DNA of 64,000 nucleotides from an uncultured Lachnospiraceae bacterium (GTDB lineage Bacteria; Bacillota; Clostridia; Lachnospirales; Lachnospiraceae): the NCBI GenBank assembly GCA_947384285.1, contig CANDGI010000003.1:62001-126000 (forward strand). Direction: 5' to 3'. Below are positions 30,963-62,686 of this stretch, in pieces; position 1 is the stretch's first letter, and each line of letters opens with the position of its first letter. Below the pieces are notes generated by a model. That model did no database searches. It worked only from the letters and a program-made list of their open reading frames with translations, and had not been told where the DNA came from. A program made the translations under genes and the position numbers.

Positions 30963-31088
30963 TCAAGGCATTTCAATAATTCTTCCAAAAATAAGCGTCT
31001 GGAATCCCATTCCTGGAACTCCAGACGCTATATGCTTTCCGGCTTTTGCCGCTTCCTCAATGGTTGCAATAACCCCTTGTTTCTGCAT
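30963..31088 (-). pseudogene. Possible gene remnant (41 codons)
   Basis: Within the 605-bp gap between the MATE and GGGtGRT genes a short frame reads MQKQGVIATIEEAAKAGKH and continues through SGVPGMGFQTLIFGRIIEMP. Its IEEAAKAGK stretch is the same as the C-terminal SIEEAAKAGKF of the GGGtGRT protein downstream, and the DNA is alike there, so it may be a scrambled duplicate of that gene's end. The Shine-Dalgarno is poor. Low confidence as a coding gene. The rest of the gap (31089-31310) holds several GAGGGTT repeats and no gene. Confidence 0.3.
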
Positions 31089-31310
31089 CGTTTCCAAGCC
31101 ATTTGAGCGCTACGTGAGGGTTATTCGTGAGGGTTGTATGAGGGGCTCTTGAGGGTTACAGACTCAGCTTTATTTAATGCACGAATCTCTAAATCCCCAG
31201 AATCCGCACAAATCCAGGCTTTTTCATATTTCCTGTGGTTGGTGCGCAAGATATATCTCTATCGTTCCCGCCCATAGTGTTCACAGCAAAACATATTGAT
31301 ATTGTATATC

Positions 31311-31344
31311 AAAACGCCATAATTCAAATGAACTATGGCGTTTT
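31311..31344 (-). terminator. Terminator of the GGGtGRT/NifU-like pair
   Basis: AAAACGCCATA and TATGGCGTTTT form a perfect 11-bp stem, and the loop can extend it through TTCA/TGAA. On the minus strand it ends in GTTTTGA, 45 bp past the GGGtGRT stop codon. Confidence 0.85.
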
Positions 31345-31388
31345 GTCTGTCTTTATCTGTTGCTTTTGCTATTTTTAACGCAATCTAA

Positions 31389-32399
31389 TCAAAATTTGCC
31401 TGCTTTAGCAGCTTCCTCAATGGAAACGGCAACTGCAACCGTAGCGCCTACCATTGGGTTATTGCCCATTCCGATTAATCCCATCATTTCTACATGGGCT
31501 GGCACGGAGGAAGAACCTGCAAACTGTGCGTCAGAGTGCATACGTCCCATGGTGTCTGTCATGCCATAGGAAGCCGGGCCTGCTGCCATGTTATCCGGAT
31601 GAAGGGTACGTCCAGTACCGCCGCCGGATGCAACGGAGAAATACTTCTTGCCCTGCTCGTTGCATTCTTTCTTATATGTACCTGCTACCGGATGCTGGAA
31701 ACGTGTAGGATTGGTGGAATTGCCTGTGATGGATACGCCGACATTTTCATGATGCATAATGGCAACGCCTTCCTGTACGTCGTCTGCGCCATAGCATTTT
31801 ACCGTCGCGCGGAGCCCGTCAGAATATGGTTTTTCATAGACAACGTTTAATTTTGCTTCTTTATAGTCATACTCTGTCTCAACGAAGGTAAACCCATTGA
31901 TACGGGAAATAATCTGGGCAGCGTCTTTTCCAAGGCCGTTTAAGATAACGCGCAGAGGTTTCTGGCGGACCTTGTTTGCCTTCTCAGCGATGCCGATTGC
32001 GCCTTCTGCTGCTGCAAAGGATTCATGCCCTGCCAGGAAGCAGAAGCATTCTGTCTCTTCTTCCAGTAACATTTTGCCAAGATTTCCATGTCCAAGGCCA
32101 ACTTTTCTGTGGTCTGCAACGGATCCTGGAATACAAAAAGCCTGAAGGCCTTCTCCGATTGCAGCTGCTGCGTCTGCTGCTCTCTTTGCGCCTTTTTTGA
32201 TTGCGATTGCTGCGCCTACGGTATATGCCCAGCAAGCATTCTCAAAACAAATCGGCTGGATTTTCTTTACCTGCTCGTAAACGTCAAGCCCAGCGTCTTT
32301 TGTGATTTTTTCAGCCTCCTCTACGGAGCTGATTCCATAACTATTTAAAACAGAATTGATCTGGTCAATTCTTCTTTCATATGATTCAAATAAAGCCAT
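31389..32399 (-). CDS. GGGtGRT protein
   Basis: A 336-residue protein of the family named for its motif, here SGGGTGRTLHPDN (about residues 255-267). Other conserved-looking blocks are CFENACWAYTVGAAIAIKKG, PGSVADHRKVGLGHGNLG, FCFLAGHESFAAAEGAIG, and a C-terminus rich in small residues (MGLIGMGNNPMVGATVAVAV). No biochemical function is established. It always seems to travel with a NifU/IscU-like partner, found here 174 bp upstream in the same direction, so a role with an Fe-S or metal cofactor is plausible (inference). The start at 32399 has AGGAGG; a longer frame to 32498 is unsupported. A strong terminator follows. Confidence 0.85.
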   Translation of the reverse strand: MALFESYERRIDQINSVLNSYGISSVEEAEKITKDAGLDVYEQVKKIQPICFENACWAYTVGAAIAIKKGAKRAADAAAAIGEGLQAFCIPGSVADHRKVGLGHGNLGKMLLEEETECFCFLAGHESFAAAEGAIGIAEKANKVRQKPLRVILNGLGKDAAQIISRINGFTFVETEYDYKEAKLNVVYEKPYSDGLRATVKCYGADDVQEGVAIMHHENVGVSITGNSTNPTRFQHPVAGTYKKECNEQGKKYFSVASGGGTGRTLHPDNMAAGPASYGMTDTMGRMHSDAQFAGSSSVPAHVEMMGLIGMGNNPMVGATVAVAVSIEEAAKAGKF

Positions 32400-32573
32400 T
32401 TGAAATGTCCTCCTATCTTTTTGAACAATGGTTCTTACCTTACGTAAACTTCCATCTTGCGCAGCCTTCCCTTTTCCAAGCCAGTGCACACATATCATGC
32501 AAAACGCCTAAGACATTCCACCCTGTGCGCCCTGCCCTTCTTCGGGCCGCATGGCTGGCTTACCTGCTTTTGG

Positions 32574-33266
32574 CTATTCTACGCGCGGATCAATAATCTT
32601 AGCTGCATCTGCTACACGGCCATACTGTCCTTTTGCCTTCTCCCAAGCAGTGTTAGGATCATCGCCTTTTTTGATAAAGTCAGTCATTTTTCCAAGGCTT
32701 ACGAACTGATATCCGATAACTTCATTGTCTTTATCCAAAGCAATACCGGTTACATAACCTTCTGCCATTTCCAGATAACGAACACCTTTTTCCTTTGTTG
32801 CATACATGGTACCAACCTGAGAACGAAGCCCTTTTCCTAAGTCTTCCAGACCAGCGCCTACTGCCAGTCCATCATCGGAAAATGCACTCTGGGTACGTCC
32901 GTATACAATCTGTAAAAACAGCTCCCTCATAGCCGTATTGATTGCATCACAGACAAGGTCTGTATTCAATGCTTCCAGAATTGTCTTACCCTGCAGGATC
33001 TCTGCTGCCATAGCTGCAGAATGGGTCATGCCGGAACATCCAATGGTCTCCACCAAAGCTTCCTCAATCACGCCGTTTTTTACATTCAGTGAGAGCTTAC
33101 ATGCGCCCTGCTGGGGAGCACACCAGCCGATACCATGTGTAAAACCAGAAATATCTTCAATTTTCTTGGAATGCACCCATTTTCCTTCTTCTGGAATTGG
33201 AGCTGGTTCATGTTTTGCGCCCTTAGCTACCGGACACATGTTTTCAACTTCCTTCGTGTAAATCAT
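32574..33266 (-). CDS. NifU/IscU-like iron-sulfur scaffold protein
   Basis: A 230-residue protein whose first half resembles the NifU N-terminal/IscU scaffold: GWCAPQQGACKLSLNVKNGVIEEALVETIGCSGMTHSAAMAAEIL, shown in part as WCAPQQGAC and ETIGCSGMTHSAA, followed by GKTILEAL. The Cys in IGC aligns with a scaffold ligand, while the usual CGD motif is changed to WCAPQQGAC. A C-terminal region (about 150-230) is specific to this subfamily. The N-terminal CPVAKG and HEPAPIPEEGKW stretch is also characteristic. Start at 33266 with AAAGGAG. It is the first gene of a two-gene unit with the GGGtGRT protein. Confidence 0.85.
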   Translation of the reverse strand: MIYTKEVENMCPVAKGAKHEPAPIPEEGKWVHSKKIEDISGFTHGIGWCAPQQGACKLSLNVKNGVIEEALVETIGCSGMTHSAAMAAEILQGKTILEALNTDLVCDAINTAMRELFLQIVYGRTQSAFSDDGLAVGAGLEDLGKGLRSQVGTMYATKEKGVRYLEMAEGYVTGIALDKDNEVIGYQFVSLGKMTDFIKKGDDPNTAWEKAKGQYGRVADAAKIIDPRVE

Positions 33267-33312
33267 TTTAAGACTCCTTTCAATGTATACATTTTTTAAC
33301 CATGTTAAAACA

Positions 33313-33330
33313 TTGTTATGCATTTAACAT
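33313..33330. promoter_or_regulatory. Rex-like operator upstream of the NifU-like/GGGtGRT pair
   Basis: TTGTTA-TGCATT-TAACAT lies 47 bp before the start codon. It resembles the clostridial Rex consensus TTGTTAANNNNTTAACAA in the outer half-sites. An adjacent ATGTT-AA-AACAT palindrome (33303-33314) overlaps it. Rex would link expression to the NADH/NAD ratio. No clear -35/-10 pair was found. Confidence 0.45.
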
Positions 33331-61280: not shown

Positions 61281-62686
61281 TGTGTGGAGGAAATGCTTAG
61301 GCGTTCCTGGGGGGTGTGGATGTCATAATTATCGGGGCCGAAGGAGATGCAGTCTAAGCCTTCTAGTTTCCCGGAAAAAATGCCGCATTCCAGTCCGGCG
61401 TGGATTGCCTGCAGTTTTGGAGGTTCCTGGAACAAGTCTTCATATGTTTCTGCCATCAATTTCCGCATGGGGGATACTGCCTGGTATTCCCAGGCTGGGT
61501 AATCGCCGTGTGTTTCTACTTCTCCGCCTAAGAATTCTGTAATAAATGCCAGGCGTTCCGTTAAGTCATATTTTCTGCTGGTGACGCTGCTCCGCACGGA
61601 GAAGCATAATTGGAATGCATCGTCTTCCAGCGTCATGATTCCTGGATTTAGGGAGGTTTCTACCAGTCCTTCGATTTCCGTGCTCATGTGCTGTACGCCC
61701 CAGGGCATGCTGCAGAGCATAAACAGGATTTTTGTTAGGGAGGTTTCATTTACTGCCTTTGCATTCCGGCGCTCTGTTTTTTTGCAGGAGATTTGGATTT
61801 CGGAATCAGAAGCCTGGTACTCATGTTTTAATGTTTCATTCAGGCTGGCAATTTTTTCCTGTAATTTGCGAGGGTCTGTTTCCGGGGGCAAAAGGATGGC
61901 TGCCGCTGCTTCTCTTGGGATGGCATTGTCTTTTAAGCCGCCTGAAATGTCTGCCAGCGCAAAGGGGATTTCCTGGCGGACTGCATACAATACCCTGCCA
62001 AGAAGCATAATGGCGTTTCCCCGCTCCTTGGAAATCTCGCTGCCGGAATGACCGCCTTTCAGGCCTGCTGCCTGGATTTCGTAAGCAATTCCCTCTGCTT
62101 CTACCCGGGAAACAGGGATTCTGCAGTCTGCCCGGAGCCCTCCGGCACAGCTTGTAAGGAAAATCCCTTCCTCATCTGAATCAATGTTTAAAAGCTTCCT
62201 GCCTTTCAGCATGGAAAGGTCAATGGATTCTGCGCCTAACAGGCCGATTTCTTCATCCACGGTCAGCACAACCTCCAGGGGCGGATGGGGCAGGGCATCA
62301 TCCTCCAAAATTGCCAGTGCATAGGCAAGGGCAATTCCGTCATCTCCGCCAAGGGTGGTTCCTTCTGCCTTTAGAAAATCACCGTCGATATACAGATTCA
62401 GCCCATCTTTTTCAAAATCAATCTCTACGCCATTTTCCTTTTCACATACCATATCCATGTGTCCCTGGATAATCACAGGTTCCGCTGTCTCGTAGCCTTT
62501 GGAACCATCTTTAAAAATAATCACATTGTTGCTCTCGTCCTGCATCCATTTCAAATGATGTTCTTTTGCAAAAGACACACAGTAATCGCTGATGGCCTTT
62601 GTATTCCCGGAACCATGGGGAATCCTGCAGATATCTTCAAAATATGCAAATACTCTTTTTGGCTCCAACTGTTCACAAACTCTCAT
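61235..62686 (-). CDS. pepD: Aminoacyl-histidine dipeptidase (M20 family)
   Basis: A 483-residue zinc dipeptidase of the M20/PepD group (cytosol nonspecific dipeptidase, Xaa-His). It starts VCEQLEPKRVFAYFEDICRIPHGSGN, split, and has the metal motifs QGHMDMVCEKE and LGGDDGIALAYALAIL with the bridging Asp, TVDEEIGLLGAESID with catalytic Glu, SDEEGIFLTSCAGG and AIHAGLECG near the end. All metal ligands appear to be present. It is transcribed away from ylbJ. The stop codon lies within a 50-bp repeat. Confidence 0.95.
   Translation of the reverse strand: MRVCEQLEPKRVFAYFEDICRIPHGSGNTKAISDYCVSFAKEHHLKWMQDESNNVIIFKDGSKGYETAEPVIIQGHMDMVCEKENGVEIDFEKDGLNLYIDGDFLKAEGTTLGGDDGIALAYALAILEDDALPHPPLEVVLTVDEEIGLLGAESIDLSMLKGRKLLNIDSDEEGIFLTSCAGGLRADCRIPVSRVEAEGIAYEIQAAGLKGGHSGSEISKERGNAIMLLGRVLYAVRQEIPFALADISGGLKDNAIPREAAAAILLPPETDPRKLQEKIASLNETLKHEYQASDSEIQISCKKTERRNAKAVNETSLTKILFMLCSMPWGVQHMSTEIEGLVETSLNPGIMTLEDDAFQLCFSVRSSVTSRKYDLTERLAFITEFLGGEVETHGDYPAWEYQAVSPMRKLMAETYEDLFQEPPKLQAIHAGLECGIFSGKLEGLDCISFGPDNYDIHTPQERLSISSTQKVWKLLLEFLKRSN

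Follow-up and report, generated by a model that had tools for sequence, protein, structure and literature searches.

A two-gene unit lies on the minus strand of the window, the 64,000-nucleotide stretch analysed here (positions 62,001 to 126,000 of contig CANDGI010000003.1, assembly GCA_947384285.1, from an uncultured Lachnospiraceae bacterium). It comprises a gene for a GGGtGRT protein and a gene for a protein of the IscU/NifU fold, hereafter the IscU-like protein (Table 1). The GGGtGRT protein is a full-length member of PF14057 (647.5 bits with a cut-off of 27, profile positions 1–327 of 327), and the IscU-like protein matches PF01592 at 23.2 bits with a cut-off of 22, which assigns it to the IscU fold. 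The unit put forward in a preliminary description of this DNA is therefore real. Two longer open reading frames (ORFs) were rejected as coding sequences: the mechanical ORF call for the GGGtGRT gene, which runs to 32498 and starts too early, and an extension of the IscU-like ORF to 33323. Among the best 80 of 586 matches the closest named locus belongs to a Lachnospiraceae bacterium, with 98% identity in GGGtGRT. The literature found under the PF14057 family name states no function for it in the parts available.

Table 1. Coordinates of the two genes and their associated elements in the window (bp, base pairs).
Feature	Position	Strand	Remarks
GGGtGRT gene (PF14057)	31389..32399	-	336 amino acids; start and stop codons checked
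IscU/NifU-fold gene without CGD	32574..33266	-	230 amino acids; invariant C49, C77, C106
Rex-like operator TTGTTATGCATTTAACAT	33313..33330		46 bp upstream of the IscU-like start codon
Terminator-type hairpin, 16 bp	31310..31345	-	43 bp past the GGGtGRT stop codon; palindromic, could serve both strands

The IscU-like protein had been described as a scaffold lacking the usual CGD motif, and in a HMMER alignment to solved NifU the residues Q-G-A indeed stand opposite C-G-D. The Asp of this motif has a regulatory role in the IscU, NifU and SufU scaffolds. The protein shares with these (PF01592) the fold of residues 40–125 and the GC motif at the second Cys, but differs from them in the missing CGD, in a first invariant Cys that has moved upstream and in an extra C-terminal part. 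It also scores far below the cut-offs of the NCBIfam equivalogs that it touches (NifU, IscU and SufU; 26.3 versus 187.9, 22.8 versus 192.4 and 20.4 versus 92.5 bits). C49, C77 and C106 are each kept in 63 of 63 IscU-like homologues, and the aligned ranges suggest that C106 corresponds to the third IscU Cys.

To see how far the two genes occur together, we searched a sample of 249 genomes of the phylum with E thresholds of 1e-3 for GGGtGRT and 1e-10 for the IscU-like protein. GGGtGRT was found in 16 genomes and the IscU-like protein in the same 16, with neither gene alone in any genome and with the two genes adjacent in 17 of 17 copies, which amounts to near-perfect genetic linkage. In a set of 101 loci (the best 80 of 586 contig matches, the first 17 loci and four loci from a plasmid collection) both genes lie on one strand in 99, one of which (L020) has an interrupted IscU-like frame; the two misses start within a contig, at 2 and 46 bases from its edge. 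An enlarged set, in which two loci are counted twice, has both genes at 109 of 111 GGGtGRT loci. GGGtGRT also occurs in Bacteroides, Phocaeicola, Subdoligranulum and further records, and the records opened for Parabacteroides, Collinsella, Vibrio and Persicobacter contain the pair. Since Vibrio and Persicobacter carry it, the pair is not confined to strict anaerobes.

Enolase, an enzyme of sugar breakdown, is regarded as universal. We searched for it with the TIGR01060 model at E 1e-3. Among 29 pair-bearing genomes seven gave no enolase match, and an eighth, that of Butyrivibrio fibrisolvens 16/4, gave only a 33-position remnant; a truncated enolase gene is reported for the same strain in the available text of Kelly 2010 (PMC2914790). 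Across the phylum sample, 6 of the 16 genomes with the pair lack enolase, as do 8 of the 233 without it (p 5.8e-5). From incompleteness alone one would expect 0.7 losses in the pair-bearing and 8.6 in the pair-free group, so that the eight losses in the latter correspond to the number expected from gaps in the assemblies. When only genomes of at least 98% completeness are counted, enolase is absent from 3 of 11 pair-bearing versus 0 of 138 pair-free genomes. The other enolase-negative pair-bearing genomes of this sample are G207 (96% complete, from another family) and G109 and G125 (81 and 83%, from two further families). G142, G222 and G246 are examples of pair-bearing genomes with no TIGR01060 match.

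The same comparison was made in the family of the window, Lachnospiraceae, with 329 genomes from 328 genera. The pair is present in 270 of these, enolase is absent from 62, and both are absent from seven, namely G755 (96% complete), G824 (91%), G768 (67%), G771 (60%) and three of unlisted completeness that, by the overall tallies, fall outside the class of at least 90% completeness and at most 5% contamination. Within that class enolase is absent from 43 of 227 pair-bearing versus 2 of 41 pair-free genomes (p 0.024), and with completeness raised to at least 98% from 23 of 135 versus 0 of 20 (p 0.045). At this level of completeness, in the samples drawn from phylum and family, no pair-free genome lacks enolase. 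On the basis of incompleteness alone, 13.2 losses would be expected among the 270 pair-bearing genomes, where 55 are observed, and 4.5 among the 56 pair-free genomes of known completeness, where 4 are observed; some apparent losses may be assembly gaps. We inspected the pair in the 27 of the 55 enolase-negative pair-bearing genomes that have a known locus position, and it is intact, adjacent and complete in all motifs sought in every one; among 27 enolase-positive controls a single motif is missing, from L180. When enolase state is placed on the tree of the pair, at least 12 changes are needed, four of them forced by well-supported branches, as against a shuffled mean of 18.2, and the losses thus look repeated but clustered.

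Bacteria without enolase have been noted before. According to the available text of the Hungate1000 study, about half of the Butyrivibrio strains lack the gene, and a comparison of enolase-positive with enolase-negative strains gave no complementing function. Such a null result is expected if the replacement is carried by enolase-positive and enolase-negative strains alike, as the presence of the pair in 270 of 329 family genomes would imply. The accessible parts of papers from 2023–2024 still call the glycolysis of enolase-negative Butyrivibrio an open gap, and those of a study of Prevotella brevis GA33 report enolase missing from genome and proteome. One explanation would be that enolase was lost for ecological reasons and its step is circumvented through the methylglyoxal shunt or in other ways, with the pair merely common in the same gut lineages. 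A shunt of this kind is proposed for Butyrivibrio and Pseudobutyrivibrio in the parts available of PMC2914790 and PMC7523725, the raw family contrast is not significant (enolase absent from 55 of 270 versus 7 of 59 genomes, p 0.15), and the sheer frequency of the pair in the family makes an association with enolase loss easy. We nevertheless hold this explanation to be quite unlikely, as the available text of PMC11026938 and PMC11187502 points to missing shunt genes and to an energetic penalty, and as none of the 138 and none of the 20 near-complete pair-free genomes has lost enolase.

The gene neighbourhoods of 35 loci were compared, one place being included twice. L138 and L139 share the gene order gap-pgk-tpi-gpmI-(IscU-like-GGGtGRT)-pyk, and L129 and L140 the order gap-pgk-tpi-gpmI-(pair); gene names come from NCBIfam in the case of L139 and of the gpmI gene in L129, and from similarity otherwise. 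In L006, a short locus from a fifth genome of the same family (f33), gpmI adjoins the pair, and in L089 pyk lies two genes from it, other glycolytic genes being absent there. An enolase gene was found near the pair in 0 of 192 loci, and in the f33 clusters the pair occupies the place where enolase could be expected. Besides the pair, no other gene family recurs in more than seven of the 35 neighbourhoods, with the proviso that ORFs were poorly chosen in loci rich in G+C, in which a cluster of eight consists of an antisense frame of the pair. The pair could also be an enzyme of another step in lower glycolysis or in phosphoenolpyruvate and pyruvate metabolism, leading for example directly from phosphoglycerate to pyruvate or acting as a mutase, with enolase made dispensable by the detour. 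The genomic evidence, and the iron evidence described below, would be identical under that explanation, which we rate as quite unlikely. Against it, gpmI and pyk adjoin the pair in L138 and L139, as does gpmI in L129 and L140, so that the steps flanking enolase retain their standard enzymes in these genomes; the argument is indirect in that they also have enolase.

A further line of evidence comes from published iron responses in two phyla. In the available parts of a proteomic study of Clostridium pasteurianum (PMC5395762), GGGtGRT (F502_05012) is higher with iron by 7.1-fold in the early and 2.2-fold in the late samples, and the NifU-related protein (F502_05017) by 1.6- to 3.7-fold (2.4 and 3.7 early). 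The two enolase spots show the reverse, with more protein in the absence of iron (4.1- and 4.8-fold early, 4.0- and 1.8-fold late). In the available parts of a study of Bacteroides thetaiotaomicron (PMC10434189), iron depletion lowers the pair (BT0173-0174) 11- to 12.8-fold, with P printed as 0, and raises the row BT4570-72, which lumps three genes including eno, 2.0- to 7.7-fold with a P of 0.144. Neither paper, in the text available, draws a connection between the pair and enolase. The opposite responses look like the usual exchange in which an iron-free isozyme replaces an iron enzyme and, within the limits given here and below, this exchange with iron is observed, as is the exchange in genomes.

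Based on co-inheritance, the absence of enolase from near-complete genomes solely where the pair occurs, the glycolytic neighbourhood, an iron response opposite to that of enolase and the recurring Rex-like operator described below, we consider it fairly probable that the pair replaces enolase as an iron-dependent, non-homologous enzyme. The preliminary description had envisaged a dedicated, redox-linked iron-sulphur (Fe-S) system of anaerobes for cofactor maturation or metabolism. What survives of this is a dedicated two-gene, probably redox-controlled and Fe-S-linked system without known function; a restriction to strict anaerobes does not hold, given Vibrio and Persicobacter, and of the two roles the metabolic one fits better, the evidence pointing to an enzyme of lower glycolysis. 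Under the maturation role the IscU-like protein would be a dedicated scaffold with GGGtGRT as its client or partner, maturing or storing a cofactor for other enzymes, and the loss of enolase would be unrelated. We think this unlikely, as QGA replaces CGD and the first invariant Cys is displaced, as no other gene family accompanies the pair widely in the 35 neighbourhoods, and as the enolase pattern, the glycolytic cluster and the opposite enolase response to iron would be left without explanation.

A more specific version of the enolase replacement, to which we give an even chance, is a two-subunit [4Fe-4S] enolase of independent origin that serves as the iron-replete anaerobic isozyme in several phyla and as the sole enolase in many Lachnospiraceae. 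In both the general and this specific version the two proteins would form one enzyme, unrelated to the classical Mg enolase, that converts 2-phosphoglycerate to phosphoenolpyruvate; we infer this chemistry, as well as complex formation. GGGtGRT is the proposed catalytic subunit that binds 2-phosphoglycerate, and its invariant Arg, Lys and His residues would bind the phosphate and carboxylate and move the proton. The IscU-like protein is the proposed Fe-S-bearing subunit, whose three invariant cysteines would be the permanent ligands of a [4Fe-4S] cluster in which one iron stays open, and this iron would act as the Lewis acid that takes the C3 hydroxyl of the substrate. Clusters of this kind occur in aconitase-type dehydratases. 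The proposed three-Cys, one-open-iron chemistry is thus like that of the Fe-S dehydratases (aconitase, class I fumarase), as is the takeover by an iron-free isozyme under iron limitation; as a difference, the Pfam matches listed for the pair include no family of this kind, and its cluster is a predicted one. With classical enolase (TIGR01060) the pair would share the reaction and, in some genomes, a glycolytic gene neighbourhood, but it differs in having two subunits, presumably iron instead of Mg and no sequence relation; scans against Pfam, with either protein or with their alignments as query, list no enolase family. In cells that have both enzymes, the pair would serve under anaerobic, iron-rich conditions and classical enolase under iron scarcity, and presence of the pair would make enolase dispensable, leading to its repeated loss. 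If this is true, the long-standing glycolytic gap of Butyrivibrio-type bacteria would be filled, which could explain life without enolase in some rumen and gut bacteria.

Several observations weigh against an enolase replacement. Most pair-bearing genomes of the family, the window's own included, keep enolase (215 of 270), and besides the raw family contrast the comparison at completeness of at least 99% is not significant (enolase absent from 17 of 109 versus 0 of 11, p 0.36). A split or partial-looking GGGtGRT match is found in 5 of the 55 enolase-negative genomes (G936, 100% complete; G961, 94%; G876, 69%; G991, 80%; G1069, 87%). In the phylum sample, the three near-complete genomes that lack enolase come without exception from the window's family. 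The glycolytic cluster is known from one family only (f33), and its genomes G174, G248, G029 and G144 have enolase elsewhere. Two genomes from two genera of family f46, G042 (97%) and G083 (93%), lack both enolase and the pair, while a third pair-free genome of that family, G118, has enolase; the two may represent true enolase loss without the pair, assembly gaps or a third solution. Enolase loss is also reported for Endomicrobia and the Candidate Phyla Radiation, groups outside the survey of the pair. As for iron, apart from the P value and the lumped genes of the B. thetaiotaomicron eno row, many iron proteins of C. pasteurianum fall without iron too in the available parts of PMC5395762, so that the drop of the pair alone proves little. 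Finally, the available text of Kelly 2010 (PMC2914790) reports that extracts of B. proteoclasticus, which lacks the gene, showed only very low enolase activity, the assay atmosphere not being stated there; this low activity would fit an oxygen-labile enzyme.

Regarding expression, a Rex-like site upstream of the pair had been proposed and is borne out. The Rex operator consensus is TTGTTAA-N4-TTAACAA, and TTGTTATGCATTTAACAT matches it at 12 of 14 positions (p 0.015 versus shuffles of the same upstream region). A looser Rex-like pattern occurs at 5 places in the 3.2-Mb genome versus 2 for a reversed control, and the same genome encodes a Rex-type DNA-binding domain (PF06971, 79.6 bits). Among 98 non-redundant upstream regions the best match reaches at least 12 of 14 positions in 10 and at least 11 of 14 in 30, and 21 of these 30 are located between -90 and -30. 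Not one of 60 shuffled palindromes reaches 10, 30 or 21 (means 0.8, 6.3 and 2.1; maxima 3, 19 and 13). A predicted Rex-like operator thus recurs upstream of part of the pair loci, a convincing site being missing from most (p at most 0.05 in 19 of 101). Such a site would tie expression of the pair to the ratio of reduced to oxidized nicotinamide adenine dinucleotide (NADH/NAD). The window's genome has four other perfect sites of the looser Rex-like pattern, two of which were inspected: one, near position 1500 of L119, stands just before a 482-amino-acid ferredoxin-rich hydrogenase-like gene, and the second has no recognised gene after it.

The claim that the unit has its own terminator stands in part. 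The hairpin downstream of the GGGtGRT gene is strong (-22.9 kcal/mol, z -7.5, equal stability in 0 of 200 shuffles) and has TTTT within its 3' arm, but a simple terminator scan does not list it, so that the label is based on the hairpin. Farther downstream, at 31032-31073 on the minus strand, a frame VIATIEEAAKAGKH resembles the GGGtGRT C-terminus VAVSIEEAAKAGKF and is perhaps the remnant of a duplicated gene end. The gap between the two genes (32400-32573) is 174 bp, versus a median of 19 bp in 109 loci, of which 101 have a spacing of at most 100 bp. This gap holds a terminator-like hairpin on the plus strand, and its sequence occurs once in the window.

Three other cases are of note for their arrangement or sequence. 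In Parabacteroides distasonis (L101, 7800-7991) an annotated 63-amino-acid ORF lies between the genes of the pair, and in Collinsella aerofaciens (L100) a single transposase gene separates the pair from a preceding SUF Fe-S assembly operon. G207, a genome with no enolase match, holds two copies of the pair (L017 and L011), the second of which is divergent, with GGGIGRT and with NPDD for HPDN, and perhaps acts on a different substrate.
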